A DNA stretch of 64,000 bases from Cryobacterium tepidiphilum (GTDB lineage Bacteria > Actinomycetota > Actinomycetes > Actinomycetales > Microbacteriaceae): contig NZ_RDSR01000004.1 in the NCBI RefSeq assembly GCF_003716325.1, positions 1 through 64,000 on the forward strand, read 5' to 3'. The stretch's first letter is position 1. Each line of letters begins with the position of its first letter. The notes below the pieces were generated by a model. The model was given only the letters and a program-made list of their open reading frames with translations, was not told the origin of the DNA and did no database searches. The translations under genes were made by a program, and so were the position numbers. Positions 1-14,969 of this stretch are shown in pieces.

Positions 1-1290
1 GACTTCGTTGTCTTCGATGTTGGTGTTCGTCGAGTCGTCGTGGTTGAAGGAGTCCTCGTTGAAGGAGTCGTCCAGGGCCACGTCGACATCGGAGTCCACG
101 TCCGTCGAGTTGTCGGAGTTGTCCGAGTTGTCGGAGTTGTCCGAGTTGTCGGAGTTGTCCGAGCTGTCGTTGAGCGAGTCGTCGACGTCCACATCCACCG
201 AGTTGTCGGAGTTGTCGGAGTTGTCCGAGTTGTCCGAGCTGTCGTTGAAGGAGTCCTCCACGTCCGCGTCCAGCGAGTTGTCGACCGAGTTGTCCGAGTT
301 GTCCGAGTTGTCGGAGTTGTCCGAGTTGTCGGAGTTGTCGTTCAAGGAGTCGTCAAGCTCGACGTTGGTCGAGTTGTCCGAGTTGTCCGAGTTGTCGGAG
401 TTGTCCGAGTTGTCGGAGTTGTCGGAGTTGTCCGAGTTGTCGTTCAGCGAGTCTTCCAGTTCGACGTTCGTCGAGTTGTCGGAGTTGTCGTTCAGCGAGT
501 CGTCCAGATCGATGTTCGTCGAGTTGTCGGAGTTGTCGTTGTTCGAGTCGTTCGTCGAGTTGTCGGAACTGTCGTTGAACGAGTCGGCCAGGTCGATGTT
601 CACGTCGCTCACCGTGCCGCCGACCGCGATGTTCGCGTCGTCGCCGGCGCTGACATTGGTCGAGTTGTCGGTCGAGTTGTCGACATCCGCGTCGTCGCCG
701 GCTGCCACGGCGTGGTCACCGCTCGCAATCACCGCTTCGTTGTCGAACAGCTGCGACACGTCTCCGTCGGCCCAGATGTTCTGGTTGACGGACTGGTCGG
801 TGATCGTGTCGCGGTCGTCGACCGTCGACGTGTAGGAGTAGTTGTTGACGATGTGCATCAACTGCTGCACCGCGTGGCCGTGGTCACTGTCGGATCCGCC
901 GCCGGAGCCGCCGCCGTCCGAGCCGGAGTCATCGCTGCCGGAGTCCGAGCCGCCGCCGGAGCCGCCGGAACCCCAGTCGCCACCGGAGTCACCGCCGGAG
1001 TCGCCACCGGAGTCACCGCCGCCGGAGTCGCCACCCATCATTCCGAGCGAAGCGTTGTTGCCACCGGTGTGGTACTCGCGGTCGAAGGAGGAGTCGATGT
1101 CGGCGTCGACGTCGACGGGGGCGTAGTCGAGGACCACAGGCATGACGGCGTCGATGTCGTCGGCACTGATGTCGCCGAGGCCGGCGTGGTCGAGAGCCTT
1201 GGCCGGGTCTTCGCGGAACGCGTCAGCGGCTTCCGGATCCCTGAGCAGATTCATGATGAAGTCGAGGAGCATGGAGGTGAGTGTGGGCAT
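1..1290 (-). CDS. IniB-like protein with Asn-Ser-Asp repeat tail (partial, C-terminus off the window)
   Basis: The frame is open from an ATG at 1290 to base 1 (430 codons) with no stop, so the C-terminus is missing. AGGGAA lies about 8 bases before the ATG. Residues 1-70 resemble the IniB N-terminal domain: a helical stretch beginning MPTLTSMLLDFIMNLLRDPE, then an Asp/Ala-rich part. Residues about 85-130 are Gly/Ser/Asp-rich. From about residue 190 the chain becomes an acidic low-complexity array of (N)SDN units broken by LDDSFND-type blocks. In mycobacteria iniB heads the isoniazid-induced iniBAC operon with dynamin-like IniA and IniC. Such genes could lie beyond the left edge, but this is inference. 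No signal peptide is seen. The function is unknown; a cell-envelope stress role is suggested only by family and by the neighbouring regulator and Hsp70. Confidence 0.8.
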   Translation of the reverse strand, partial: MPTLTSMLLDFIMNLLRDPEAADAFREDPAKALDHAGLGDISADDIDAVMPVVLDYAPVDVDADIDSSFDREYHTGGNNASLGMMGGDSGGGDSGGDSGGDSGGDWGSGGSGGGSDSGSDDSGSDGGGSGGGSDSDHGHAVQQLMHIVNNYSYTSTVDDRDTITDQSVNQNIWADGDVSQLFDNEAVIASGDHAVAAGDDADVDNSTDNSTNVSAGDDANIAVGGTVSDVNIDLADSFNDSSDNSTNDSNNDNSDNSTNIDLDDSLNDNSDNSTNVELEDSLNDNSDNSDNSDNSDNSDNSDNSDNSTNVELDDSLNDNSDNSDNSDNSDNSDNSVDNSLDADVEDSFNDSSDNSDNSDNSDNSVDVDVDDSLNDSSDNSDNSDNSDNSDNSDNSTDVDSDVDVALDDSFNEDSFNHDDSTNTNIEDNEV

Positions 1291-1458: not shown

Positions 1459-3549
1459 TCAGTCCTGATTGTCGCCGTCCAGCACGACGCGCAGCCGGGT
1501 CATGAGGTCGGATCGGGTCGTGGCACCCACGCGGCGACGAATGCGCGCGATGTGGTGCTCCGCGGTGCGGGGGGAGATGAAGATCGTCTCCCCGATCTCG
1601 CGGTAGGTCTTGCCCTCGAGCACAAGGCGCGCCACTTCCCGCTCACGCGGGCTGAGACCGGTGGCATCCGCTGGTCGGGGCGCCGGCGGCGCGCTCGACG
1701 TGGTCGGTGCGTCGTGCGGCCCGTCCATCCGTACCAGCGCCGTCGCGGGGTGCAGGTCCCGGGCACAGGACAGGAGTCGGGCCATGTCGCGGCGGTCTTC
1801 GGCATGGGCGGCCGCGTGCCCCGCGAGGCGGGAGCCGTCCCAGGTCAGACCGACCGACGCCAATTCCCGCGCCGCGGACTCGACGGCCGCGGCATCGACG
1901 GTGCCGGCGAGCACCGACATCCAGCACCGCCCGGCGGCGGAGAAGGCCGAGGCCATGCGACTGCCGGCAGCGGCATGGACGAGAGCGGTCGCGTGCGGTG
2001 CGATCTCACGCGGGCGATCGGTGAGGATGGCCGCCTGGACCGCACACCACCGGAGGGGAACCGACCACAGGGGCGGCTCCCCGAGTCGCGTGAGCAGCGA
2101 CCAGGCCTCGGCAAGGTGGGGTGCCAGACGGCTCGACTCCCTCAGCCTCGCAGAGGTCACCAGTAGCTCTCCGAGCGGAAGGAGGCAGTACAGGTCGACC
2201 GAGACGTGCAGCAGCCGCTCCCGGGCTTGTTTCCACGCGCGCACCAAGGCCGGACGGTCGTCGGTTCGCCGCGCCAGCCCGGCGTCGAGGGCGTGCAGCA
2301 GCAGTTCATCGCGCGGGGCAAGGGGCACTCCGGCTTCGAGTGCGTGGCTGCGAGCGTCACGTGCGGGCTCGGGTTGGTCCAACTGCATCAGGGTCCACCC
2401 GCGTAGCAGGGAGAGTCGCGGGAGCGCCGCCGGACCGCCCTGGTTCGCCGCGATCGCCGCGTCGAGCACGGAGAGGCTGACGTCGAGCTCCCCGCTGTGC
2501 AGGGCGACGAGCGCCGCAAGGGCAGCCGGCGTGTCGGGCAGCGGGGCGGTGGTGACACCAGATGCCGTGAGAGCGTCGGACGCGCGGATGAGAGCAGGCA
2601 GCGCGTGAAATGGCCGCGCCTCAAGGGAGTGCGTGATCCCCTGCCCCATCAGGTCGGCGGCGGCGGCGAGGAGCGATGGGCAATCGCCGGTGGTCGCCGA
2701 GGCGGACATCTCCGCGGCACCTGCGCGGTCACCGATACCGATCATGGCGACGGTGGCGAGAGGGGCCGACAAGCCCGCGGCGCCGGAACCCGGCCACCGG
2801 TAGGCCTCGACGCCCCGGTGGAGCATGCCGCGCCTGGCCCAGACGGATGCTGCCACGTTCGTGGCCCGCCGGAGGTCGGGTGCGTTCTCCTGCGCGAAGA
2901 GGTCGTCCAGGATGCGGGCGGCGGCGTCGAGATCGCCCGTCGCGGCGGCTGCCTGCGCGCGGCGGGCCGCCAGATTCCACTCGTCGGCGCCCGCGCCCTG
3001 CGCCTCGTCATACAGCGCGCGTGCGAGCGCAGGACGGTCGGCCAGTGCCTTGTCGCCGGCGCGCTCGAGCGCATGCGCCACCCGGGCATCCCTGAATCCG
3101 CTCCGGGCCAGTTGACGGGCAACCGCATCCAGCGGATGGCCGCCCTCCTGCAATCCGTCGACGAGCTTGCGCTGAAGAGCACGGATGCGGTGCGCGGGCG
3201 TTGCCGCCAGGAGCGACTGGGCCACCGAGGCGGGGATGTTGCCGTCTGCGTCCAAGTAGCCGCCCTCCTCGGCTTCGCTGATGAGGTCGTCGATGTCCCA
3301 CCCGGGCGGGAGTGGCGGCGAAAGCGGACCCGCGAAGTCGAAGCCCACGGCGTAAGCGAGGAGGAACGCCCGCAGCTCCTGACCGATCTGGCCGAGCTGC
3401 CGGTCGGGCGATCCGTCGCGGGCACCCGGGTGCAGGTCGGGAGTGGCGGCGAGGAACCGGGCGTCGGGAGCCGCGGTGATGTCGGTCACCCGGCCGCGGA
3501 GCCCGGCGCCAGGACGCGGCGCATCTTCGCTCCGTATCGGCTCGCGCAC
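1459..3549 (-). CDS. Large LuxR-family transcriptional regulator
   Basis: This is a 696-residue protein whose last 65 residues form a LuxR/GerE helix-turn-helix, with the core LSPREREVARLVLEGKTYRE followed by ISPRTAEHHIARI. Residues about 100-600 are Ala/Leu-rich and look like helical TPR-type repeats. I see no Walker A motif, so it is not a typical LAL/MalT ATPase. The frame continues upstream into the Hsp70 gene, but the GTG at 3549 is preceded by GGAAGGG at a 7-base gap and follows the Hsp70 stop by 4 bases, so I chose it. Co-transcription with the Hsp70 gene is likely, and the IniB-like gene follows. The signal sensed is unknown. Confidence 0.85.
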   Translation of the reverse strand: MREPIRSEDAPRPGAGLRGRVTDITAAPDARFLAATPDLHPGARDGSPDRQLGQIGQELRAFLLAYAVGFDFAGPLSPPLPPGWDIDDLISEAEEGGYLDADGNIPASVAQSLLAATPAHRIRALQRKLVDGLQEGGHPLDAVARQLARSGFRDARVAHALERAGDKALADRPALARALYDEAQGAGADEWNLAARRAQAAAATGDLDAAARILDDLFAQENAPDLRRATNVAASVWARRGMLHRGVEAYRWPGSGAAGLSAPLATVAMIGIGDRAGAAEMSASATTGDCPSLLAAAADLMGQGITHSLEARPFHALPALIRASDALTASGVTTAPLPDTPAALAALVALHSGELDVSLSVLDAAIAANQGGPAALPRLSLLRGWTLMQLDQPEPARDARSHALEAGVPLAPRDELLLHALDAGLARRTDDRPALVRAWKQARERLLHVSVDLYCLLPLGELLVTSARLRESSRLAPHLAEAWSLLTRLGEPPLWSVPLRWCAVQAAILTDRPREIAPHATALVHAAAGSRMASAFSAAGRCWMSVLAGTVDAAAVESAARELASVGLTWDGSRLAGHAAAHAEDRRDMARLLSCARDLHPATALVRMDGPHDAPTTSSAPPAPRPADATGLSPREREVARLVLEGKTYREIGETIFISPRTAEHHIARIRRRVGATTRSDLMTRLRVVLDGDNQD

Positions 3550-3553
3550 CGGA

Positions 3554-5530
3554 CTACCCTTCCGCTGCCGGTTGCATTGCCGCTGCCGGTTGCATTGCCG
3601 GGTCCGCCGGGTCGGCGGCACCGGGTTCGGCAGGTTCGGCGGGAGGGTCGGTTTCGGCCGGGCCGGGGTCGACCGGGTCGGCCGTCGGGGTCGGCGTCGG
3701 AGTCGGCGTCTCAGTCTCTGTCGGCGTCGGAGTTGGGGTGGGTGTCGGCGTCTCAGTCGGCGTCTCAGTCGGCGTCGGTGTCGGCGTCGGAGTGGGGGTT
3801 GGCGTCGGGGTTGGTGTTGGTGTCGGTGTTGGTGTCGAAGTGGGAGTCGGGGGCGGTGTGTGGGTCGGGGTTGGCGTGGGCGTAGCACTCGGACGCGTTG
3901 TCGGCTCGGGCGTTTCCGGCGGACGGGAGGTCGGACGAGGCGATCCGGTACTAGGCCGGGGCTGGGCGTCGGATCCGCTGCGTGGGCTGACGTCTGACAC
4001 GTTCTCGACCGACAGCGGCGGACTCACGTACTCGTCGTCCTGGGTACCGGGTGCGGCATACAGGTCCGGGCTCGGCGACGGCACCGGTTCCTCGGGTGCC
4101 GGGGCGGGAGCCGGCTTCGGCTTGGCGGTCGATGTGCCGGGAGCCGCGGCGAGGGCGGCACCCGGGTCCGACACGCTGTGGTCGGGTGACGGGCCGGCGG
4201 GGGCATCCGTTGTCTGCGGCGAACTCTGTTTCGTGCCCGCGCTCGCGTCGGCACTCAGCAGGGTGATGCCGGCGAAATGGGAGGCGGTGCCGGTGGCCAC
4301 CATCAACGACGCAACGACGGCGGCGACTGTCGCGACCCGCACCGCCGTGCGGTGGCCGGGTCGCACGACCCTGGCCGGCTTCAGCGCCGACTCCCCGGCT
4401 GCCGGGACGCCGGCGAGCGCCGCCGGCTCGGGCACGGGATGCTGTTCCGCGAAAGCCGCAGCAGCGGCGAAGGCGGCTCCGAGACAGATCGAGGCTTTGG
4501 GGTCGGTGTCGATCGCGATGGGCCGGGCCAACTCGCCGGAGAGCATCTGGGCGATCAGAGGTACGCGGGACGACCCGCCCACCAGGAGGATGGCGTCCAG
4601 GTCGTCGATGTCGCAGCCTGCCGTGTGCACCGAGTGCCGGAGCGCGGTGATGGTCTCGCCGACGGGCCCCTCGATCATGCCCTCGAACTCGGAGCGCACC
4701 AGGCGCACCTGGGATTGCGCGCCGGGCAGGAGCACGGGAATGGAGGCTTCGGAGTCGTAGGAGAGTGCTTCTTTCGCCTCCACGCACTCCCGGCGCACTC
4801 GTGCGAGGGCGGCGAGAACGTCGGGATCGGTGAGGTCGAGGTTGCGGAGGGGCTCGCCGACGCTGGCCACGACATGTTCGAACACCGCCTGGTCGAAGTC
4901 GGCGCCGCCCAGCCGCTCGATGCCCTCTGGCTCCCCGAGCACGGTGAAGCTCTCTGACGACTGCTTACGGACGATCGCGACATCGAATGTTCCGCCGCCG
5001 AAGTCGTAGACGGCGATCGTGCTGCCGACCTCAAGCCGTTCCTGCGAGGCGTACTGAAGGGCCGCCGCCTCGGGTTCGCTGAGGAGTGTGGCGTCGGCGA
5101 GCCCCTCCTGGCCGAGCGCCTCGCGAACGAGCCTGATCTTGTATTCGCCCCAGCTCGCCGGCCGGGTGAGAATGACGGCATCGGGCTCCGCGCCCTCCCG
5201 TTCGGCCGCACGATCCGCCACCCATCGGGCCATGCGCGCGTACAGCGTCTCAGGCGCGAGGGCGCGGTCCCCCACGATTATCGGCACGCTGTCGCCGATG
5301 CGGCGCTTGAACTCACGCACCACGAGATCGGGTCGATCGAGCCCGCGCCTCTCCGCCGCCTCGCCGACCAGCACCTGTCCGTCCTCGCCGAAGTAGAGGA
5401 CGGAGGGCACAGCGGCGTTCCGCGACCCGAGGGTCAGTGCCTGCGACCTGGACTGCCCGGGGTCGCCGACGTGGCCCACGGCCGCTGCCGTGAAACTCGT
5501 TCCGATGTCAATGCCAAGGACGTACGCCAT
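3554..5530 (-). CDS. Membrane-anchored Hsp70-family protein with Pro-Thr repeat tail
   Basis: The 658-residue product starts with an actin-like ATPase domain (about 1-370). It has phosphate-1 DIGTSFTAAA, phosphate-2 YDFGGGTFDVAI and the adenosine motif LLVGGSSRVPLIAQML. There is no canonical peptide-binding domain. Instead a hydrophobic segment (about residues 395-420) is followed by a Ser/Pro linker, a long Pro-Thr repeat and an Ala/Glu-Pro tail. The likely topology is a cytoplasmic ATPase with an extracytoplasmic PT-rich stalk. The ATG at 5530 has AAGGAA six bases upstream; an in-frame ATG at 5554 lacks a good site. It is followed after 4 bases by the LuxR-type gene. Such Hsp70-like proteins sit beside iniB-like genes in Actinobacteria. 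The client or partner is unknown. Confidence 0.85.
   Translation of the reverse strand: MAYVLGIDIGTSFTAAAVGHVGDPGQSRSQALTLGSRNAAVPSVLYFGEDGQVLVGEAAERRGLDRPDLVVREFKRRIGDSVPIIVGDRALAPETLYARMARWVADRAAEREGAEPDAVILTRPASWGEYKIRLVREALGQEGLADATLLSEPEAAALQYASQERLEVGSTIAVYDFGGGTFDVAIVRKQSSESFTVLGEPEGIERLGGADFDQAVFEHVVASVGEPLRNLDLTDPDVLAALARVRRECVEAKEALSYDSEASIPVLLPGAQSQVRLVRSEFEGMIEGPVGETITALRHSVHTAGCDIDDLDAILLVGGSSRVPLIAQMLSGELARPIAIDTDPKASICLGAAFAAAAAFAEQHPVPEPAALAGVPAAGESALKPARVVRPGHRTAVRVATVAAVVASLMVATGTASHFAGITLLSADASAGTKQSSPQTTDAPAGPSPDHSVSDPGAALAAAPGTSTAKPKPAPAPAPEEPVPSPSPDLYAAPGTQDDEYVSPPLSVENVSDVSPRSGSDAQPRPSTGSPRPTSRPPETPEPTTRPSATPTPTPTHTPPPTPTSTPTPTPTPTPTPTPTPTPTPTPTETPTETPTPTPTPTPTETETPTPTPTPTADPVDPGPAETDPPAEPAEPGAADPADPAMQPAAAMQPAAEG
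3681..3893 (-). repeat. Pro-Thr coding repeat (GTCGG-type low-complexity DNA)
   Basis: About 210 bp inside the Hsp70 gene consist of CCN-ACN codon pairs (plus-strand GTCGGNGT units), interrupted by Glu-Thr and Ser-Thr. In protein terms this is roughly 35 PT dipeptides, an extended, probably wall-spanning stalk. The tandem DNA structure makes it prone to length variation by slippage. Boundaries are approximate. Confidence 0.85.
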
Positions 5531-5744
5531 TGTTTCCTTCAAATGAGCAATCATCAGGATTGCCCACTCAGGCTAACACCGGAGTGCCCGCATGTGCCAC
5601 CTCTTCGGGGGCCGTGATGACCAGAATTGCAGATCGTGCGCTCCACGTCGACCCATCGCCCGTCGCCCGCAGCCGCAACCCGTCAACTAACGTCTTCTGT
5701 GGGGCTATGACACCAGCGAGCAGAGTCCCAGGAAAGGCTGGCGG

Positions 5745-6530
5745 ATGCTGCTCTCCCCCGCACCCGACCCCCGCGTCATCCACGCCGCAGACGGTGTCGA
5801 CCTCGCCACCTACGAGTTCGGTAACGCCGGCGCCCCGCCCGTGCTCGCCGTTCACGGATTCGCGTCAAGCGCATCCGCCAATTGGCTCGACACCGGATGG
5901 GTCCGGGATGTGACACGTGCGGGCTTCCGCGTGATCGGCTACGACCAGCGCGGGCACGGCGCCAGCGGCAAGCCGCATTCACCCTCGGCATACTCCGTCG
6001 AGATCCTCGCAGCGGATGTCGACGCGGTGCTGCACGCGTATTGTGTGGACCGCGTCGCCTACCTCGGTTACTCGCTCGGCGCCCGCGTGGGCTGGCAGGC
6101 GGCGCACATCTGGCCGCGGCGCATCACTCGGGCGGTTCTCGGTGGCATCCCCAGTGGCGACCCACTTCGCCGGTTCCGGCTCGACTCGGCCCGCGACTTC
6201 ATCGCCCACGGCGCCGTGGTCTCCGACCGGCTCACGTCGACATATCTCGACATGGCAGGGCGGATCCCCGGGAACGACCTCGAAGCGCTCGTCGCCCTGG
6301 TCGAGGGCATGCGCGGCGGCACGGAGCCGAGCGCACTGAACGCACCGGCACAGCCGGTGCTCTTCGCCACCGGCAGCGAGGATCGGATCTTGCCGGCCTC
6401 TCAGGAACTCGCAGGGATCGCACCGCGCGGCAGGTTCTTCGAGATTCCCGGGCGCAACCATTTCAACGCGCCGACGGCCCGCCCGTTCCGCTCTGCGGCG
6501 ATCGCATTCTTGGCTGAGCAGAACGCGTAG
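5745..6530 (+). CDS. Alpha/beta-fold hydrolase
   Basis: This 261-residue cytoplasmic protein has the alpha/beta-hydrolase pattern. The oxyanion strand is VLAVHGFASS, the nucleophile elbow GYSLGAR (Ser near residue 112), a late acid is in GSEDRI and the catalytic His in GRNHFNAP. The ATG at 5745 is preceded by GGAAAGG. It stands alone on the plus strand, divergent from the Hsp70 gene (about 215 bp apart) and convergent with the CapA operon, whose last stop is 3 bp away. The substrate cannot be told from sequence; esterase, lipase or haloperoxidase-like activity are all possible. Confidence 0.85.
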   Translation: MLLSPAPDPRVIHAADGVDLATYEFGNAGAPPVLAVHGFASSASANWLDTGWVRDVTRAGFRVIGYDQRGHGASGKPHSPSAYSVEILAADVDAVLHAYCVDRVAYLGYSLGARVGWQAAHIWPRRITRAVLGGIPSGDPLRRFRLDSARDFIAHGAVVSDRLTSTYLDMAGRIPGNDLEALVALVEGMRGGTEPSALNAPAQPVLFATGSEDRILPASQELAGIAPRGRFFEIPGRNHFNAPTARPFRSAAIAFLAEQNA

Positions 6531-6533
6531 TCG

Positions 6534-7499
6534 CTACTCCGGGAGGAGTATCGGCAGGGCCGCTCGCGCCATGTCGCCATGCGAGTGGGCGATGCCTGGA
6601 ACGACGATGAGCCTCCAGTTGAAGGTGGCCGATTCTCCCGCGTACTCGCGCGCCGTGCGGTAGAAGTTGAGGCCGCGCGCGAGGCGATCCGTTCCCTGCT
6701 GGTCGGTGTGCCGATCACGTTGCAGCGAGGAATCGTGGGGATCGATGTCGTCGGCACCGAGCAGGATCACGAGCTGTCGTTTGAACGCCTCCTTCATGTC
6801 GTCCGCCCGCACCGGTGCCCCCTTCATCCCATAGGGAAACCGGACCGACTCGTCGAGGACGGTGTACCAGCCGGCGTTGGCGGCGACCGCGATCGTCGCC
6901 TTGGTTTCAGGCATGAACTCCATGAACCGGTGCACGAACTGCGCGCCGGCGGAGTGCCCGAAGAGCTCGTAACCGGTGGCACTGCTGTGGGTTTCGGCCA
7001 CAACGGAGGCGAACAACGACTCGATCATGTTGAAGCTCCACTCCGCCTGCGGCTGCAGATGGCCGTCCTCGTCGATGATGCTTCCGAGGTTGTAGGAGGA
7101 GACACCCGGGTAGTCGTCCTCGGAGAACTCCGGAACGAGAAGCAGTGTGTTCCGGTTCTTGAGCAGCGGCACCCAATCGGCGCGATAGTCCTCGCCGTCG
7201 CGCTGGGTTCCCGTCATCACGATCAGAATGCGCGCGTTCGCCAGGTCGGCCGGGGCGTTGTACCAAACGTGAAGAGGACGCCCGGCCAGCTTCCCCGCGC
7301 CTTCAAACGTGAAGTCGCCGTTCCCGGTCCGCGTGATCGACTTCTGCGCGATGTGTGTCGGTGGTGATGCGGACATGGCGGGACTTCTTCCGTTGTCAGT
7401 GCCTGCAGAACGTGGTGGGGAGCCGACGGTGCACCCCGAGAGGGCGAGGGCCGCTGCAGTGATCGCGATGGTCGCGGGGACGAGGAGCCGCCTGCGCAC
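6534..7499 (-). CDS. Lipoprotein alpha/beta hydrolase (last gene of the P-loop/ABC/CapA operon)
   Basis: The 321-residue product begins with VRRRLLVPATIAI and a lipobox LALSGC (Cys 23), so it should be lipid-anchored outside the membrane. The hydrolase fold shows the nucleophile elbow GHSAGAQ, an acid around LLGADDID and a His in PGIAHSHGD. It is a clear paralogue of the hydrolase encoded at 8622-9458: both share (S)(A/G)GAQF(V/A)HRF, a Tyr-rich block ending FPYG and a PG(I/T)AHS motif. The GTG at 7499 begins one base after the CapA stop, so translation is probably coupled; I see no strong Shine-Dalgarno site. The reaction is unknown. Position suggests it acts on the product that CapA and the exporter handle. 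Confidence 0.8.
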   Translation of the reverse strand: MRRRLLVPATIAITAAALALSGCTVGSPPRSAGTDNGRSPAMSASPPTHIAQKSITRTGNGDFTFEGAGKLAGRPLHVWYNAPADLANARILIVMTGTQRDGEDYRADWVPLLKNRNTLLLVPEFSEDDYPGVSSYNLGSIIDEDGHLQPQAEWSFNMIESLFASVVAETHSSATGYELFGHSAGAQFVHRFMEFMPETKATIAVAANAGWYTVLDESVRFPYGMKGAPVRADDMKEAFKRQLVILLGADDIDPHDSSLQRDRHTDQQGTDRLARGLNFYRTAREYAGESATFNWRLIVVPGIAHSHGDMARAALPILLPE

Positions 7500-7500
7500 G

Positions 7501-8625
7501 TCAACCGTCGCGTTTCGTGAAACAGTCGCACGGCATCCGCGCCTTGTCGCCCTGGACGAAGAACCCTTGGTTGATGGTCGGCGCGACCACGCGGAGTTTG
7601 TCGGGGCTGCAGGGCACGGGGACATAGTTGGTGATCAGATTGTCGGTGAGAATGCACTGGAGGGTGAGTTGCGTCGGCCCCCGCCGATGGAGCTCCACGC
7701 TGAATACCAGCCCGATTCCCTCCCGGCCGAAGCCCTTGAACCGCCCCGGAGCGCCGAAGACGAAGTTGCCGAGGCTGTAGACCACGGGGACGCCATCGAT
7801 GACGTCCATCGGTCCGTCGATGTGCGGCCCGGTGCCGATGATGAGGTCGTAGCCGGCGTCGACCAGCAGCCTTGCCCAGTAGCGCTGTTGCAGGTTCGTG
7901 TCCGTGTAGTTGTCGCCCCAGTGCACGTAGGCCACGACCCAGTCGGCGCCGGCCGCGCGTGCCAGGTCGTATCCGCGTTGCACGGATTCGGGGCTGAAGA
8001 CCACGGTGCCGGCATGGTCGTCCGCTGCCCTGCTGAGCTGTCCGAAGTTCTCGCCGAGCGCCACGATTCCCACCGTGCCGAGGTCGGAGTGAAGGATCAG
8101 CGGCCTCTCGGCTTCGGCCAGGGTCGCACCCGCGCCGAAGGTGACGACGCCGTTCGCTCGGGCGAATCGCTCGGTGTCCCGCAGGCCGGCCACGCCCATG
8201 TCCATGGCGTGGTTGTTCCCCAGCCCGAAGGCGTCCACTCCCGCCTTCTTCAGCGCGGCGGCTGCGACGGGCTTGGAATTGTACGAGTACGACTTGCCGG
8301 GATCGGCGGGGATAGTCTGCTCGCCGATGGGCGCTTCCGCGTTGGCGACGGTGAAGTCGCCGTCGAGCATGGGAGCCACCTTCGACAGCGTCCAGCCGTA
8401 TCCGTACGCGTTCAGTAACGGCTGTGCACCGTCACCGAGCATGGTGTCGCCGACGAACTGGATACTCCAGGTGTCGTTGGCCCCGATGTCGACGGCGTGG
8501 TCGATGGATTCGACGGCCAAGGTGCTGTGTGCACTGAAATCGATGACCATGGTGGCGACGATCGCCGCCGCCGCGAGTGTGCAGATCGCGATCAGGATGC
8601 GGTCGCGAAGGCGTGCCCTTTTCAT
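7501..8625 (-). CDS. CapA/PgsA-family metallophosphatase-fold protein
   Basis: This is a 374-residue protein with one N-terminal membrane helix (about residues 9-27) and an extracytoplasmic CapA domain. All family landmarks are present: FVGDTMLGDG, NNHAMDMG, VAYVHWGDN, GTGPHIDGPM and VYSLGNFVF. In known systems CapA/PgsA belongs to the membrane complex that makes or moves poly-gamma-glutamate capsule. Here no CapB ligase or CapC is adjacent, so a classical polyglutamate operon is not shown. Its ATG overlaps the stop of the upstream hydrolase by 4 bases, and its stop abuts the downstream lipoprotein gene. The substrate is inferred to be an exported anionic peptide or polymer, with low certainty. 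Confidence 0.85.
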   Translation of the reverse strand: MKRARLRDRILIAICTLAAAAIVATMVIDFSAHSTLAVESIDHAVDIGANDTWSIQFVGDTMLGDGAQPLLNAYGYGWTLSKVAPMLDGDFTVANAEAPIGEQTIPADPGKSYSYNSKPVAAAALKKAGVDAFGLGNNHAMDMGVAGLRDTERFARANGVVTFGAGATLAEAERPLILHSDLGTVGIVALGENFGQLSRAADDHAGTVVFSPESVQRGYDLARAAGADWVVAYVHWGDNYTDTNLQQRYWARLLVDAGYDLIIGTGPHIDGPMDVIDGVPVVYSLGNFVFGAPGRFKGFGREGIGLVFSVELHRRGPTQLTLQCILTDNLITNYVPVPCSPDKLRVVAPTINQGFFVQGDKARMPCDCFTKRDG

Positions 8626-9458
8626 GAGTGCATCCTGTTCTGACTGATGGCGGCACCGGACAGCGCCTGGGATCGATGAACGAAATCGACCACCCGTGAC
8701 ACCAGGTCGCCTCGGTGGACGGCGCTCGTGAACGAATGGGCGGTACCGGGCAGCAGGTCGAATGACACCCTGGACGGCCGGTGCCGGACGGATGCGACGG
8801 ACTCCAGATGATCGACCCAGCGGAGCGCGCGCGCGAGACGGTTATCGCCTTGCGCTTGGTCCAATCCGCCTCCGGTGGCGAGGGTGCCCGTGCGTTCCAC
8901 GTCCAGTTCCCCGACGAGCACGTGAATGGGCAACCGCAAGAACGCCTCAACATCCGGGCGCTCGCCGGCGCTGAGGATGCTGGGGCGAATGCCGTAGGGG
9001 AATGGACGGTTGTCGTCGAGGTACGTGTAGTAGCCCGCGGAGGCGGCGACGACGCGACGAACCCGCCCGGGCGCATACAGCGCGAAGCGGTGGGCGAACT
9101 GGGCGCCCCCGGAGAATCCGCAGAGGGCCACGCGATCGGTGCTGAGTCCCAGCACGTTGTCGGCGTCGGCCAGCGTGCTCTCGAGTGCGCGCAGTGCGGA
9201 CAGCGGACCGGCCGCGCCCGCCAGCCGCTGGTAGCCGGGAAAGGCGTCGACGGGAAAGGTGGGAACGATCAGGGGCATGCCCAGGGTGGTGGCATGTGGA
9301 AGGAAAGCGCGGAACATCCGGCCCGTGTTCCGCCGGCTGCCGTGGATCAGCACCAGGGGGGACACCAGGCGCCGGGAGCGTGGGACGAACGCCCAGTAGG
9401 TCAACGGTGGCTCTCCGGATGATTCGTGAACGGTTAGGAAACCAGCGCCGGTTTCCAT
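8622..9458 (-). CDS. Cytoplasmic alpha/beta hydrolase, paralogue of the operon's lipoprotein hydrolase
   Basis: The product has 278 residues and no signal peptide. The fold is shown by VLIHGSRRN (oxyanion region), the nucleophile elbow GFSGGAQ, acid in VGELDVERTG and His in PGTAHSF. This resembles PHB-depolymerase/feruloyl-esterase-like hydrolases. The frame is open further upstream, but AAGGGAG sits 5 bases before the ATG at 9458, so that start is preferred. It overlaps the 3' end of the ABC exporter gene by 25 bases and the CapA gene by 4. Together with the lipoprotein paralogue it makes a pair with one member inside and one outside the membrane. Confidence 0.82.
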   Translation of the reverse strand: METGAGFLTVHESSGEPPLTYWAFVPRSRRLVSPLVLIHGSRRNTGRMFRAFLPHATTLGMPLIVPTFPVDAFPGYQRLAGAAGPLSALRALESTLADADNVLGLSTDRVALCGFSGGAQFAHRFALYAPGRVRRVVAASAGYYTYLDDNRPFPYGIRPSILSAGERPDVEAFLRLPIHVLVGELDVERTGTLATGGGLDQAQGDNRLARALRWVDHLESVASVRHRPSRVSFDLLPGTAHSFTSAVHRGDLVSRVVDFVHRSQALSGAAISQNRMHS

Positions 9459-11155
9459 GGTGCTCCCTTCCGCTCCGCCAGCCACAACTGATCGCGGTAC
9501 TCATCACCGCTGAGCACCTGCGTGACGCGGCCTCCTGCCATCACCACCACCGCGTCGGCGAGTGCGATCTCCTGCGGATCATGCGTCGCCAGGACGGCGG
9601 TGCCCGCATGCCGGCGGAGGAGTGCGATGAAGGCATCCTTCCCCGATCGGTCCAGACCATCTGTGGGTTCGTCCAGGACCAGAATCGGCGGATTGCCCAT
9701 GAGCGCGCGCGCCAGTGCGATACGTTGCCGTTGGCTCACGGACAGGTTGCGGCCGCCCTCCGTCACCCAGGTGTTGATACCGTCGGGAAGTTCGGCCAGG
9801 ACGTCATCGAGTCCGCTGGCGCGTACGACGCGCTCCACTTCATCGTCGTCGGCGTCGGGCAGCGCGTAGGTGATGTTCCGGCGCACCGTGCCGCGCATGA
9901 GGGGAAGGTCCGGCCCGACCACGCCCACTCGCCGCGCCACGGAGTCGGGGATGGTCTGGGCCAGGGGCTGGCCGTCCACGATGACGCTTCCCTCGGTCGG
10001 TTCCACCATACGGGCCAGGAGCCCGAGCAGCGTCGACTTACCGGCACCCCCGGGGCCCGTCACGGCGACGAGCTGCCCCGGCTCAACGTGCAGGACGATG
10101 TCGTGCAGTGCGCCGGACACGGTCACGGAATCGAAACGGATGTCGCCCTTGCGCACGCGCATCCGTTCCAAGCTCAACCGATCGATGGGGCGGCTGGAGC
10201 TACGCAGGTATTCGGCGATCTTCTGCTCAGAGACCTGCGCACGGTGCCAGTAGTCGTGTGCGAGCCCCAGGCGGTGAACCGGGCCCGACAGCTGGCGCGC
10301 AACGACCACGAAGGCGACGACCAGGCCGACCGATGCCGTTCCCCTGCGGATCTCGAACATGCCCACCGTGAGCACGACGCCGACGACGATCAACGAGAAC
10401 GCCGTCGAGATACCGCGCAGGTATCCGCGCAAGCGGGCCACCCGGATCAGGGCGCGGGTGAGGGCGTCGTTCTGACGGGAGAGCCTGGCGAACTCACCCG
10501 CGGAGCGGCCGAACACCTGCACGACCGCGTGGGCATTGAGCTGCTCGTCGATATTGCTCATCACGAGCGAACGCCGGCGGCGCATGGCGCGGGTCGCCCG
10601 CCGCATGGCGCGCCCGGCCGCGAGGGACAGGGCCGCCCCGGTGCAGAGCGCGGCGAGGATCGCCAGCGTCATCCAACTGCTGAGGAACATCAACACGCCG
10701 AGCGTGCCGACGAGGACGACGGCTGCCATGATGCCGCCGAGGATGCCGTGGCTGATCCACATGCGCGTCATTGAGAGGTCGCCCAGAAACCGGAGCAGCA
10801 GTCCTCCGCGCGCGCGTCCCTGCAGTTGACGAGGGGTCATTCCCTGCAGGTGCCGGTACATCTTCATGCGCAGGTCCCGGACGATCCGGTACCCGACCGC
10901 CTCGGTCACCGAGAACTCCCGGGATCGCAGCCACCCGTGGACCAGGGCGACCACGCCGAGGAGGGCCACTTCCCCCAGCGCCACCCGGAAGGCCGCCTCG
11001 GCGGCCTCCCCGACCACTGCGGGTACGAGTGCGTTGACCACGGACCGGAGCAGGAGGACAAAGGACACCAGCGTGATGACCTGTCCGATTCCGAGGACGA
11101 CGACGATGACGATGGAGCGCCTGGGGATGCGGAACAGCCCTTTCGCCGCTCCCAT
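9434..11155 (-). CDS. ABC exporter, fused permease-ATPase
   Basis: This is a 573-residue half-transporter. Residues 1-310 carry hydrophobic helices of an exporter transmembrane domain. Residues about 330-573 form the ATPase with Walker A GPGGAGKST, signature LSVSQRQRIALARALM, Walker B ILVLDEPTDGLD and the switch His in VLATHDPQE. The signature reads LSVSQ rather than LSGGQ, a known type of variation. It probably works as a homodimer exporting a peptide, lipid or small product. Its ATG shares one base with the stop of the P-loop gene (TGATG). Position between a P-loop enzyme and CapA suggests export of the operon's product. Confidence 0.9.
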   Translation of the reverse strand: MGAAKGLFRIPRRSIVIVVVLGIGQVITLVSFVLLLRSVVNALVPAVVGEAAEAAFRVALGEVALLGVVALVHGWLRSREFSVTEAVGYRIVRDLRMKMYRHLQGMTPRQLQGRARGGLLLRFLGDLSMTRMWISHGILGGIMAAVVLVGTLGVLMFLSSWMTLAILAALCTGAALSLAAGRAMRRATRAMRRRRSLVMSNIDEQLNAHAVVQVFGRSAGEFARLSRQNDALTRALIRVARLRGYLRGISTAFSLIVVGVVLTVGMFEIRRGTASVGLVVAFVVVARQLSGPVHRLGLAHDYWHRAQVSEQKIAEYLRSSSRPIDRLSLERMRVRKGDIRFDSVTVSGALHDIVLHVEPGQLVAVTGPGGAGKSTLLGLLARMVEPTEGSVIVDGQPLAQTIPDSVARRVGVVGPDLPLMRGTVRRNITYALPDADDDEVERVVRASGLDDVLAELPDGINTWVTEGGRNLSVSQRQRIALARALMGNPPILVLDEPTDGLDRSGKDAFIALLRRHAGTAVLATHDPQEIALADAVVVMAGGRVTQVLSGDEYRDQLWLAERKGAPWKPALVS

Positions 11156-12378
11156 CAGGCACCCCTCTGGCGCATGACGTGGGCATTGAGCGCGAGGACG
11201 CGCTTCGGGGCGAGCCGGCTGCCAAGCGGTGTGACCTCGTCGCTGGGCATGCGGACGGCCTTCTTGGCCGCTGTGCTGGTGAGTATCGTGTCCTCGATGC
11301 GTGCGGCCCCGGGTCGGAGCAGCCCCGACAGCCCGAGGAGGTCTGCGGAGAGGGCGGGCGTGCTGAGTTCCTGCAGACCGAGCACGGGCAGGCCTGTCGC
11401 ATCCGCTGTCTCGCGGATCGCGAGCGGCGATCGCGTGACCAGACCGGATACGGCAACGACGTTATGGCCCAGCGACCGAAGGTGTGAGACTCCGGCGGCG
11501 GCCCCCATCGCGTCGGGCGCGGCGAAGATGACCACGTCGATCTTCGCGTGGAATACGGGGCAATCGAGCAGGCGTGACGTTTCCGACTGGTAGATCCCGT
11601 CGGCGACCTCGACGAAGTTCACCATGGAACCGGAGTCGGTGAGGTGGTCCAGCAGTTCGCCGAACTTGCGCTCAAGGAGATCCATCGGCTGTAGGTAGGT
11701 CGACGACATCCCGACATCGGTGAAGTCGAGCATGCGGTGGGCGCCCGCGTCGAGCATGCACCAGTAGTCGTTTCCGGAACCGGTGCCGGTCACCTTGGTC
11801 GCACCGACACGGATGCCGGCCCTGCTGAGTCCGTGCACCAGGTAGTGGATGGTGGTGGTCTTGCCGGAATTCATTGCCGTACCGATGACCGCGATGGTGC
11901 GGGGCGGGGTCCGATCCACGAGGACAGGATCCAGCGCGAAGTCCATGACATTGAGTGGACGACCCCGGTCATCCCCGACCAGCCCGACAGGAACGATCTC
12001 GGTCGCCGTGCGGACGGCTTGGCTTCGGGTGATGACCTGAGAGGCGATACCGCCGGAGGCGACCAGTTGGGTGCGCTTCAGGGTGCTCGGCACCCGGGAC
12101 TCGAACTGGTCCGTGGCATACCGATCGCCATACGTGACGATGATCTCGTCGCCGAGGTGAAGCACGGCCCGTCGCCCGTTCGGCTCCTCGATATGCCGGT
12201 GATGGCCGAGCCGGGCGATGCGCGCCAGCACCAGGTCTCCGGTGCGGGGGCGAATGGCCCCGCCGATGATCGTTCGCATGGCATCGTGCGGCACGCGCCG
12301 CGTGGTGAAGGCCGGCTTGGCGGCCTCGCGCTGCGTCTCGTCGAGGGTTTGGACCCAGATGCGTCGTCGGGTAGACAT
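11155..12378 (-). CDS. P-loop NTPase of DUF1611-like type, first gene of the CapA operon
   Basis: The 407-residue protein has an N-terminal region (about 1-150) rich in beta strands without a motif I recognise. A P-loop domain follows: AVIGTAMNSGKTTT near residues 164-178, then GATKVTGTGSGNDYW, a DFTDVG block and VNFVEVADGIYQSE. This order resembles the C-terminal domain of DUF1611 proteins (a family that includes DgcN, tied to D-glutamate N-acetylation) and also MobB-like P-loop proteins. The assignment is by eye. The ATG at 12378 has AAAAGGAG 4 bases upstream; a longer start at 12414 is possible. It opens a five-gene operon. An ATP-dependent acyl or peptide ligase role is plausible but unproved. 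Confidence 0.65.
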   Translation of the reverse strand: MSTRRRIWVQTLDETQREAAKPAFTTRRVPHDAMRTIIGGAIRPRTGDLVLARIARLGHHRHIEEPNGRRAVLHLGDEIIVTYGDRYATDQFESRVPSTLKRTQLVASGGIASQVITRSQAVRTATEIVPVGLVGDDRGRPLNVMDFALDPVLVDRTPPRTIAVIGTAMNSGKTTTIHYLVHGLSRAGIRVGATKVTGTGSGNDYWCMLDAGAHRMLDFTDVGMSSTYLQPMDLLERKFGELLDHLTDSGSMVNFVEVADGIYQSETSRLLDCPVFHAKIDVVIFAAPDAMGAAAGVSHLRSLGHNVVAVSGLVTRSPLAIRETADATGLPVLGLQELSTPALSADLLGLSGLLRPGAARIEDTILTSTAAKKAVRMPSDEVTPLGSRLAPKRVLALNAHVMRQRGA

Positions 12379-12567
12379 GGGGCTCCTTTTCGCGTGGTCG
12401 CTTCCTTGTGCCACGCGTCGTCACTCCGCCGGGCCGCGGAACAACGGATTACCCCCCGTTCGGGTGGTAGGCGACATATTCTCAAAATTGTTATGCGCAG
12501 CACAAGCATTTGGTCCGCATCCGTTCGTTCATTGCGGCCGATCACCTCTCGGCTTTACCGTGGTGCC

Positions 12568-12800
12568 ATGTCATTGCGCTTCGAAGAGGTCGTTGTGGAC
12601 TGTTCCTGAATGTCCCCGAGCCGAAGACGGTGAAGAACCGGCTGCACCTCGATTTCGTGCCGGATGATCAAGCCGCCGAGGTCGAACGGCTCGTGGCCCT
12701 GGGCGCCCGGCACGTCGACATCGGCCAGGGCGAACAGACCTGGGTGGTGCTGGCCGACCCGGAGGGCAACGAGTTCTGCGTGCTGAGCGCGCGCTCCTGA
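12568..12800 (+). pseudogene. Remnant of a VOC/glyoxalase-family gene with internal deletion and frameshift
   Basis: An ATG at 12568 opens MSLRFEEVVVDCS and hits TGA at 12607-12609. From about 12600, in another frame, the sequence reads LFLNVPEPKTVKNRLHLDF through GARHVDIG to VVLADPEGNEFCVLSA, then a stop at 12800. Both parts fit the start and the C-terminal half of one small glyoxalase-like VOC protein. The roughly 40 or more residues normally between them are gone, and the join shifts frame. The simplest reading is a deletion that killed the gene. A translated C-terminal fragment from an upstream start in the second frame is possible but would lack half the fold. Confidence 0.75.
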
Positions 12801-12817
12801 TCCGGCTGGATGAGAAA

Positions 12818-13429
12818 GTGGAGGACGAGGGCGGCCGATGGATCACCTTCGGAGTGCTGCCACTTCGCCAGCGCCTGTCTCTGTACCTCTGGGTCGCTGT
12901 CCCCGGCGTGTCCCTGTTGGTGATCCTCTGCGTGGAGTTCGTGCTTCAGGTCTCGTTCCGCCTCTTCGGCTCTTTCGGATACCTGATCCTCATTCTTGTC
13001 GCTATCCCGCTCTCGGGAATCATCCTCGTTGTGTACCTGGCGTCCAAGCGCGCTCCGCAGGTCGATTTCGAGGAGGGGAAGCTCCGCGTAGGACATCGGA
13101 CGCTCGCCCTCGGTGACATCGATACAGCCTCGCTCGTCGTCTTCGACAAGCGCGGTCGGCGCTTGATGGCGCTCAGTCTCGGCACGATGAAGGGGCCGAG
13201 CGCCCTCGTCTACCTCCTGGGAGCGGATGGCCCGGTGCTGTCAGCGCGGGACCAGGCAATCCTCGTGCGCCTCCTGGAGCAGACGTCCATCGCGATGCCC
13301 ACCAGCCCTGACGACCCGACAGGCCGGTTCGCGCGCTACACCTTTCCCGGGCACCTCGACCGGGAGGCCGCGATCGAGGTCGTGAGGAAACCACCGGCGG
13401 TCGGCGATCAGCTTCCCGTCTCGTACTGA
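12818..13429 (+). CDS. Membrane protein of unknown function, two helices plus soluble domain
   Basis: This is a 203-residue protein with two hydrophobic segments, about residues 24-46 (VAVPGVSLLVILCVEFVLQV) and 50-75, followed by a soluble domain with a DFEEGKLRVGHRTLALGDID strand-rich part. The layout is that of small actinobacterial membrane proteins with a PH-like cytoplasmic domain, but I do not recognise the family. The GTG at 12818 is the only start giving the full first helix; its Shine-Dalgarno site is weak. It lies 17 bp after the VOC remnant and 73 bp before the sugar transporter. Confidence 0.65.
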   Translation: MEDEGGRWITFGVLPLRQRLSLYLWVAVPGVSLLVILCVEFVLQVSFRLFGSFGYLILILVAIPLSGIILVVYLASKRAPQVDFEEGKLRVGHRTLALGDIDTASLVVFDKRGRRLMALSLGTMKGPSALVYLLGADGPVLSARDQAILVRLLEQTSIAMPTSPDDPTGRFARYTFPGHLDREAAIEVVRKPPAVGDQLPVSY

Positions 13430-13502
13430 TCTCGCCACCGGCGGAATTCGGGCGCGAATGCCATCGCAGGCGTAGCCTCGGAGCCGACCGAGGAACGGAG
13501 TG

Positions 13503-14969
13503 ATGATGACGACATCGACGAAGAAGAGCGTGAGCAACGCGCGCGTGATCCTGCTGGCGCTGGCCGGAGCCCTCGGCGGCTTCCTCTTCGGCTTCGACTC
13601 GTCGGTCATCAACGGTGCAGTGGATGCCATCCAGGGATCCTTCGAGCTCTCCCCCGCGGTCACCGGGTTCGCCGTTGCCGTCGCCCTGCTCGGCTGCGCG
13701 GTCGGCGCCTACCTGGGCGGCGGATTCGCCGACCGGTGGGGCCGCATCCGCGTCATGATCCTGGGCGCGGCGTTGTTCCTGGTGTCGTCGATCGGTTCGG
13801 GGCTGGCCTTCGGCGTGTTCGATCTCATCATCTGGCGACTCATCGGAGGCCTTGGCATCGGCATCGCCTCGGTCATCGCCCCGGCGTACATCGCCGAGAT
13901 CTCGCCGCGCCAGATCCGAGGACGGCTCGCGTCGCTGCAGCAGCTGGCGATCACGCTCGGCATCTTCGCCGCACTGCTTTCCGACGCGCTCTTCGCCGCC
14001 TCGGCAGGAGGCGCCGAAGGCCAGCTGTGGTTCGGCCTTGAGGCGTGGCGCTGGATGTTCATGGCCTGCGCCGTGCCGGCCGTCGTCTACGGCATCGTCG
14101 CTTTCACGCTGCCCGAGTCGCCCCGCTACCTCGTGCTGAAAGACCGCGAGGAGGAAGCCCGGGGCATTATCGCGCGCATCTGGCCGGGCGGCGAGGAAGA
14201 CCGCGCCATCCGCGACATCCACGACGCCATCGCGAACGACCGACGGGCCGAGCGGAGCGGTTCGCTGCGCGGCAAGGCCTTCGGGCTGAAGCCGATCGTC
14301 TGGACGGGGATCATCCTCTCGGTGTTCCAGCAGTTCGTCGGCATCAACGTGATCTTCTACTACTCGACGACGCTGTGGCAGGCCGTGGGCTTCAAGGAGT
14401 CGCAGTCGTTCGTGATCAGCGTGATCACGTCGATCACCAACGTGGCGGTCACGTTCGTCGCCATCCTGCTCGTCGACCGCATCGGGCGCCGCCCCATCCT
14501 GCTCGCCGGATCGGTCGGCATGACCCTGTCACTCGGCGCGCTGGCGCTTGCTTTCTCCCAGGCATCCGTCGTCAACGGCCAACCGGACCTGCCCGGCGCC
14601 TGGGGGCCGATCGCCCTCGTCGGTGCCAACGTCTTCGTTGTGTGCTTCGGGGCGTCGTGGGGCCCGCTGGTGTGGGTGCTGCTCGGCGAGATCTTCCCGA
14701 ACGACATCCGGGCGAAGGCCCTCGGAATCGGCGCGGCAGCGCAGTGGATCGCCAACTTCATCGTGACGGTGACGTTCCCGCCGCTCGCTGCCGCATCGCT
14801 GCCGTTGACCTACGGCCTGTACACGTTGTTCGCGGCGTTGTCGTTCGTATTCGTGCTCACGAAGATCCCCGAGACCAACGGGATGTCGCTGGAAGAGGCC
14901 AACGCCATCCTTCCGCCGAAGAACTCCGCGAAGCGGAAGGACCCGGCCGTCTCACGCTCTCATCCGTGA
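13503..14969 (+). CDS. Sugar porter (MFS), inositol/hexose type
   Basis: The 488-residue protein has 12 predicted helices and the sugar porter signatures: GFDSSVINGA in helix 1, RWGRIR after helix 2, PAYIAEISPRQIRGRL, PESPRYLV at the end of helix 6, QQFVGINVIFYYS in helix 7, DRIGRRP and PETNG at the C-terminus. It should take up a hexose or inositol with protons. GAGGAA lies 7 bases before the ATG at 13503; GTG at 13500 and ATG at 13506 are alternatives. No sugar-metabolism gene or regulator adjoins it, so the substrate is open. Confidence 0.9.
   Translation: MMTTSTKKSVSNARVILLALAGALGGFLFGFDSSVINGAVDAIQGSFELSPAVTGFAVAVALLGCAVGAYLGGGFADRWGRIRVMILGAALFLVSSIGSGLAFGVFDLIIWRLIGGLGIGIASVIAPAYIAEISPRQIRGRLASLQQLAITLGIFAALLSDALFAASAGGAEGQLWFGLEAWRWMFMACAVPAVVYGIVAFTLPESPRYLVLKDREEEARGIIARIWPGGEEDRAIRDIHDAIANDRRAERSGSLRGKAFGLKPIVWTGIILSVFQQFVGINVIFYYSTTLWQAVGFKESQSFVISVITSITNVAVTFVAILLVDRIGRRPILLAGSVGMTLSLGALALAFSQASVVNGQPDLPGAWGPIALVGANVFVVCFGASWGPLVWVLLGEIFPNDIRAKALGIGAAAQWIANFIVTVTFPPLAAASLPLTYGLYTLFAALSFVFVLTKIPETNGMSLEEANAILPPKNSAKRKDPAVSRSHP

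Follow-up and report, generated by a model that had tools for sequence, protein, structure and literature searches.

The window, that is, the whole analysed stretch of 64,000 nucleotides from Cryobacterium tepidiphilum, carries at 6534..12378 a five-gene operon on the minus strand, the genes of which are named A to E in the order of transcription. The function proposed here, with a confidence somewhat short of even, is that this operon makes, exports and trims a beta-linked polymer of the poly-aspartate type or a close relative of it. The proposal is built on gene order, protein families, folds (by model), topology signals, the kinship between poly(aspartic acid) hydrolase-1 (PahZ1) and the hydrolases C and E, and the repeated linkage of such a hydrolase to genes A and B; from these we infer what the polymer is, which reaction A catalyses, what B transports and what part D plays.

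Gene A (11155..12378, minus strand like all five) encodes a P-loop protein of 407 residues, gene B (9434..11155) a fused ATP-binding cassette (ABC) exporter of 573 residues, gene C (8622..9485) a PahZ1-related alpha/beta hydrolase without a signal peptide (phmmer; N-terminus not hydrophobic), gene D (7501..8625) a CapA-type (PGA_cap) protein of 374 residues with one N-terminal hydrophobic anchor and a calcineurin-like metal site, and gene E (6534..7499) a predicted lipoprotein of 321 residues that is also an alpha/beta hydrolase (phmmer, model alignment). A check of the open reading frames (ORFs) bore out all five genes and the junctions listed in a preliminary description of this DNA: TGATG is common to A and B, B and C overlap by 25 bp when C is started at ATG 9458 (GTG 9485 is the alternative start), C shares the 4 bp ATGA with D, and D ends at 7501, which gives a 1-bp gap to GTG 7499, a possible start of E. 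The operon is not regarded as a chance arrangement, because the same gene order recurs in other genomes. The source genome comprises 2.86 Mb in 31 contigs (99.88% completeness), and the window is part of contig C26.

According to the proposed mechanism, A would use ATP in the cytoplasm in the manner of dethiobiotin synthetase or CTP synthase, activating a carboxylate, and would join the activated carboxylate to the amine of the next aspartate, by which the chain would grow. B would move the chain across the membrane. Outside, membrane-anchored D would accept it, process it or edit its stereochemistry. Lipoprotein E would cut the chain at the outer face; C, the paralogue of E in the cytoplasm, would cut misplaced or unexported chains there.

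The two hydrolases

Neither C nor E was matched by Pfam at E 0.01. When a profile of 28 sequences of the C/E family was run against the sequences of the PDB, two PahZ1 structures were returned first, namely 6ve6 from Sphingomonas sp. KT-1 (1.6e-78) and 9o7u from Pedobacter sp. KP-2 (8e-71), followed by LpqC (3d0k, 1.3e-65), which is labelled as a putative polyhydroxybutyrate (PHB) depolymerase. With phmmer, E alone matched 6ve6 at 3e-62, 9o7u at 7.2e-49 and LpqC at 4.6e-39, and C alone matched 9o7u at 3.8e-19, 6ve6 at 2.9e-14 and LpqC at 5.4e-09. Among C-type proteins of other loci, that of L055 had 9o7u as its best match (2.6e-26) and that of L097 had LpqC (7.7e-17; 9o7u 7.7e-12). Both PahZ1 structures were also the best Foldseek matches of the AlphaFold model of E (mean predicted local distance difference test score 85.3), with 42% and 34% identity and template modelling (TM) scores of 0.93 and 0.94 by target length; aligned with 6ve6, the model gave 1.7 Å, a TM score of 0.93 and 42% identity.

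By alpha/beta-hydrolase fold and sequence kinship, C and E are thus relatives of PahZ1, and their earlier designation as paralogous hydrolases is justified by their common matches and common invariant columns. Invariant over the 28 sequences are the motifs G.S.G, HR and QG..R..R together with the nucleophile Ser, an Asp and a His, the triad of E being Ser183, Asp251 and His305. The nucleophile elbow GHSAG of E, which contains Ser183, was placed at 6945..6959 (minus strand) from these columns, and the elbow GFSGG of C at 9105..9119 (minus strand) from alignments.

Read from GTG 7499, E has a hydrophobic start and a lipobox, LSGC (residues 20–23, 7431..7442, minus strand), recognised as a sequence signal. 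N-terminal hydropathy was above 1.3 in 12 of the 15 listed E relatives; the low values of the exceptions (L034, the second copy in L043, and L052), and of E of the window when read from 7376, may be due to the start chosen by the gene caller. C-type N-termini had a hydropathy maximum of at most 1.25 in 19 of 20 cases (15-residue scale), L108 reaching 1.87. Since C is without a signal and E has a hydrophobic start and a lipobox, one hydrolase is placed on each side of the membrane in the window, a conclusion that holds as a signal prediction from sequence and agrees with the earlier labels "cytoplasmic" for C and "lipoprotein" for E.

In the available part of PMC4456602, PahZ1 is described from degraders of thermal poly-aspartate, a chemically made substrate, and no natural substrate is named in that part. 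The KP-2 enzyme is reported there to cleave beta-amide and not alpha-amide bonds of aspartate trimers, to work endo-wise and to cleave best between L-Asp and D-Asp; a common ancestor of PahZ1 and PHB depolymerases is proposed by its authors. From kinship to PahZ1, a beta-amide specificity is predicted for C and E. E has the same fold, the same Ser-Asp-His residues and about 42% identity to the KT-1 enzyme, and C is the more distant paralogue; PahZ1 is known from the degradation of a synthetic polymer, whereas here two family members, one of them carrying an export signal and the other not, share an operon with genes for a P-loop protein, a CapA-type protein and an exporter.

Contig C27 of the same genome holds a third relative of PahZ1 (L111 5400-6320), the start of which is signal-like. 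It lies between genes that, judged by eye, resemble a GntR regulator on one side and, on the other, a LacI regulator accompanied by a sugar ABC cluster.

Conservation of the locus

Among 7,995 candidates scored in a protein search, at least 1,093 proved related to A at E <= 0.001. From a scan of GTDB genomes the best 80 of 132 A loci were used, of which 79 were scored (L039 was left out, being on the same contig as L018). Scoring was performed with a simple gene caller and ORF-level phmmer under the following thresholds: an exporter required at least 40 bits to B if adjacent to A and at least 130 bits within 6 kb, and a PahZ1-type hydrolase at least 90 bits within 10 kb. The A loci come from Actinomycetes, Acidimicrobiia, Alpha-, Beta- and Gammaproteobacteria and one cyanobacterium; the 49 pattern matches on viral contigs included no relative of A.

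An exporter was adjacent to A in 71/79 loci and adjacent or near in 78/79, the miss being L098. A PahZ1-type hydrolase lay within 10 kb of A in 31 loci, or in 32 if the hydrolase–A fusion of L089 is counted. D was found within 10 kb in 15 loci, in 14 of them together with a hydrolase; the only D locus without one, L037, is a 7.7-kb contig. The order A-B-C-D-E with a strong E is present in the window and in L031, A-B-C-D plus a weak E-like match in L038 and L041, and A-B-D-E in nine more loci (L018, L032–L036, L040, L052 and L087); the Sphingomonadales loci L042 and L048 contain A, B and D plus a PahZ1 relative. L032 belongs to Arthrobacter sp. OY3WO11 and L040 to Microbacterium nymphoidis W2R. 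A and B form a conserved core from Actinobacteria to Proteobacteria, joined by CapA-type proteins and PahZ1-type hydrolases. Homologues of the operon genes do, then, occur together in other genomes, which leaves standing the claim of novelty that the preliminary description had made dependent on such co-occurrence. Literature searches, with most subscription papers outside their scope, found no description of such a locus, as had been claimed for this set of genes, and no dedicated natural producer of poly-aspartate.

The linkage of the hydrolase to A and B was followed on a tree of A with 78 rows (L038, in which A was not kept by the gene caller, and the short L087 were left out). The label "hydrolase near" required 10 changes, at least 7 of them forced by well supported branches, compared with a mean of about 24.5 after shuffling; presence of the hydrolase is clustered on the tree, yet it was gained or lost several times. 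Where the exporter scored at least 150 bits to B, a hydrolase was present in 30 of 42 loci, and in the other loci in 1 of 37 (L089 scored as lacking), a comparison inflated by related sequences. Among the 297 genomes of the order of the window organism, A was found in 15 and the hydrolase above 80 bits in two (G000, the source genome, and G164), which contain the two best A matches; elsewhere the hydrolase score was at most 43.9 bits (Fisher p 0.0024). In the sphingomonad family to which Tsuneonella locus L042 belongs (298 genomes; cut-offs E <= 1e-30 for the hydrolase and E <= 1e-20 for A), the hydrolase was found in 36 genomes, A in 13 and both in 11 (p 1.2e-9). The nearest distance between A and hydrolase was 121–1,857 bp in 10 of these 11 and 226 kb in G395. 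In the Tsuneonella genome of L042 itself (G305), two separate A matches were observed, with a PahZ1-type hydrolase 1,744 bp from each.

Two fusions were found. In L089 (8110-10128) a single protein of 672 residues consists of hydrolase C followed by P-loop protein A. In L048 (6216-8360) a PahZ1 relative is fused to an M20-type (PahZ2-type) part directly upstream of A-B, and the best PDB match of the M20-type part is the poly(aspartic acid) hydrolase 7ljh (9.1e-91). PahZ2 was considered as a constant partner and rejected: it occurs in 51 of the 298 sphingomonad genomes and in just 3 of the 13 with A, and among the best loci in L048 only.

The P-loop protein, the exporter and the CapA-type protein

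Protein A has an N-terminal many-stranded domain (residues ~1–155) followed by a P-loop ATPase domain (residues ~156–356), the P-loop of which, GTAMNSGKTT (residues 166–175), was located by alignments at 11854..11883 (minus strand). Its Pfam matches (MobB, AAA_26 and DUF1611_C) were all sub-threshold; DUF1611_C reached 17.1 bits against a cut-off of 25, so that of the earlier name "DUF1611-like P-loop protein" the P-loop is retained and membership of DUF1611 (PF07755) is given up. Neither Pfam nor NCBIfam gave a capsule-ligase or Mur-ligase match for A, and its two NCBIfam matches include no dethiobiotin-synthetase model. With Foldseek alone, the nearest structures were signal recognition particle (SRP) GTPases and HypB; upon realignment, dethiobiotin synthetase and CTP synthase came first, differences of less than 1 Z counting as ties. 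The ATPase domain folds like these two enzymes and has the BioD-type P-loop fold, and A is predicted to be an amide-forming enzyme. From dethiobiotin synthetase, CTP synthase and the DUF1611 enzymes it is set apart by its separate N-terminal domain and its exporter partner, and from DUF1611 by the low score as well. One relative of A (P0016) carries a second copy of the P-loop domain in which the usual P-loop letters are lost; P0110 looked like an A-B fusion but was discarded, its sequence reading as a frameshifted join.

Protein B was matched above cut-off by both PF00664 (ABC_membrane) and PF00005 (ABC_tran), with hydrophobic segments in the N-terminal half, and is a fused ABC exporter with membrane and nucleotide-binding domains, as first described. 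Its NCBIfam matches were below cut-off (CydC-like, 240.5 bits against 329; MsbA-like, 235 against 602). No binding-protein gene is present inside the operon.

Protein D is the one PGA_cap match of its genome (PF09587, 173.4 bits, cut-off 27, 8e-51). It has a single hydrophobic segment (residues 6–24), and residues D60, E97, N138, H139, D142 and H268 are invariant in 16/16, which suits its description as a membrane CapA-type protein with metallophosphatase-like metal residues. The only solved relatives of D by sequence are structures deposited for the epimerase MslH, with D11, E44, N87, H88, D91 and H295 of which the invariant residues align; the alignment leaves out the stretch with His259 and His261 of MslH. 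The aligned metal, His and Asp residues are general to calcineurin-like enzymes. MslH is a CapA-like, Ca-dependent lasso-peptide epimerase according to PMC10406935. D resembles it across the metal and His/Asp residues, whereas it scores 56.6 bits with the MslH family model (NF038314, cut-off 700), is membrane-anchored and is accompanied by no lasso genes in the operon.

Because those residues are general and the MslH cut-off was not reached, epimerisation of Asp units by D is kept to a bolder version of the proposal. In this version the operon would be a natural secretion system for beta-poly-aspartate, with the dethiobiotin-synthetase/CTP-synthase fold newly employed as an amino-acid polymerase, an ABC exporter moving the chain, a CapA-type protein as D-Asp editor outside and PahZ1-type enzymes as native trimmers; a conversion of some units to D-Asp is included because the KP-2 enzyme cleaves best between L- and D-Asp. 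It would provide the PahZ1 family with its natural substrate and account for the ability of environmental bacteria to feed on synthetic poly-aspartate. We put this version forward tentatively and consider it doubtful.

Weighing of the proposed function

Like CapBCA/PgsBCA capsule loci, the operon combines a membrane-anchored protein of the CapA type with a P-loop protein, another membrane protein and hydrolase genes. It differs in that PgsB is unmatched, A has no Mur-ligase match, an ABC exporter takes the place of CapC and the hydrolases are of the PahZ1 type. The CapB/PgsB model (TIGR04012) gave no match in the whole genome (the control was above cut-off in 1 of 14 genomes), and no CapC/PgsC gene lies within the operon, to which that search was confined, the rest of the genome not having been searched for CapC. 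Because CapB was tested and not found, the operon is not filed under CapBCA: it resembles a locus for synthesis and export of a poly-amino acid. A capsule ligase was rejected on the same grounds, and the earlier view of a locus without CapB that is not a standard polyglutamate capsule locus, its P-loop protein being no known capsule ligase, is sustained within these limits.

Cyanophycin (multi-arginyl poly-aspartate) is stored inside the cell as a reserve and has an alpha-linked backbone, differing from the proposed product in both respects, although a poly-aspartate backbone would be common chemistry. It was rejected as the product, the best match to cyanophycin synthetase CphA (TIGR02068) anywhere in the genome reaching 99 bits against a cut-off of 850. 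Poly-aspartate as the residue of base hydrolysis of cyanophycin is mentioned in PMC8560796.

That the hydrolase is linked to A-B in Actinobacteria as well as in Proteobacteria speaks for a natural polymer and indicates its maker. Of the earlier reading, in which a peptide or anionic product is made, exported and trimmed, the hydrolase part has gained support from PahZ1 kinship and from the signals of C and E, A remaining the presumed maker. It counts against a poly-aspartate function that 47 of the 79 A loci have no PahZ1-type hydrolase nearby, that 13 of the 15 A genomes in the order of the window organism are without one, and that a PahZ1-PahZ2-type fusion similar to that of L048 occurs in G455 without an A match. 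A, B and D could instead handle another beta- or side-chain-linked acidic polymer or oligomer (a peptide that contains hydroxy-aspartate, a chain like poly-gamma-glutamate or an ester like polymalate) with PahZ1-type hydrolases of shifted specificity. The distance of C from PahZ1 (3.8e-19), the inclusion in the family of LpqC as top match of the C of L097, the pairing of C with an Asp/Asn beta-hydroxylase-like gene in proteobacterial loci and the placement of D in the poly-gamma-glutamate CapA family all speak for such a product; it nevertheless appears rather unlikely, E of the window being closer to both characterised PahZ1 enzymes than to LpqC and the L048 fusion pointing to poly-aspartate. 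Breakdown of environmental poly-aspartate-like matter, B importing or recycling fragments, would accord with the discovery of PahZ1 in degraders of thermal poly-aspartate (PMC4456602) and with the 25 of 36 hydrolase-bearing sphingomonad genomes that lack A. To this we give little probability: B is a fused exporter-type protein in an operon without a binding-protein gene, and an organism that only degrades would be expected to have the hydrolase without A, and not, as here, together with A and an exporter.

It is likewise improbable that A-B is a pump for envelope stress or peptide detoxification, assisted by an accessory ATPase/GTPase, and that the hydrolases degrade the toxic peptide. In 35/79 loci a histidine kinase from a single cluster is found, in many cases along with a response regulator located after A-B, and the P-loop domain of A is also SRP-GTPase-like, but the window operon contains no kinase or regulator gene, and no specificity other than that for beta-aspartyl bonds is known in the hydrolase family. 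With PADLOC, A, C, D and E went unmatched and B was matched only in part, by its ATPase portion, to mad3, mad8 and AriA; defence genes were rejected on this basis. Ribosomal-peptide modification and export, in which D would epimerise the peptide much as MslH acts on a lasso peptide and parts of it would be removed by C and E, draws on the MslH structures as the only solved sequence relatives of D and on the aligned residues that D retains. The NF038314 score far under its cut-off, the abutting or overlapping genes A to E, which leave no space for a separate precursor gene, and the 64/79 A loci without D within 10 kb make it highly improbable.

As to the proposed beta-linked poly-aspartate, thermal poly-aspartate is man-made, and its degrading enzymes came from bacteria isolated as degraders. 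If the proposal is true, the locus would give the PahZ1 family a natural substrate; if A is a polymerase, a polyamide is built by a fold familiar from the synthesis of biotin and CTP, which would open a biological route to poly-aspartate. The question of the natural role of PahZ1 can now be tested with purified proteins.

Neighbouring genes

Near A in 12 proteobacterial loci, and always together with hydrolase C (11 loci plus the L089 fusion), lies a gene of cluster c9, assigned to Asp/Asn beta-hydroxylases by a Pfam check of one member and by clustering for the others. L055 and L057 continue with Porin_O_P. These neighbours and the histidine kinase fit an acidic, Asp-based extracellular product and are no proof of it.

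An extracytoplasmic function (ECF) sigma/anti-sigma pair and an S8 subtilase were observed near A in L051, L054, L056, L076, L090, L095, L097, L101, L102, L106 and L110 (in L090 the sigma gene was not called); the subtilase sequences that were read are rich in Asp. In L080, L081, L082, L086 and L103, A is instead preceded by a small EF-hand protein whose tail is Asp-rich. These genes and VTC/DUF4956 (named by eye) recur in proteobacterial subsets only, with the exception of one Acidimicrobiales locus that has a subtilase-cluster gene, and were left out of the model.

Around the operon, no RNA family was matched by an Rfam scan of 5000-14000, and promoter and terminator signals were not above those of shuffled sequence. 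Just upstream, a called stretch of 56 residues (12630-12800, plus strand) matches only the second half of Glyoxalase_6 (profile positions 57–106 of 106). At the start of the window, a 430-codon open stretch (1-1290, minus strand) runs off that start and encodes an acidic protein with long (DNS)n repeats; beside it lie a LuxR-type regulator (1459-3489) and an HSP70-like gene (3554-5530), and the group resembles the IniB/IniA type.

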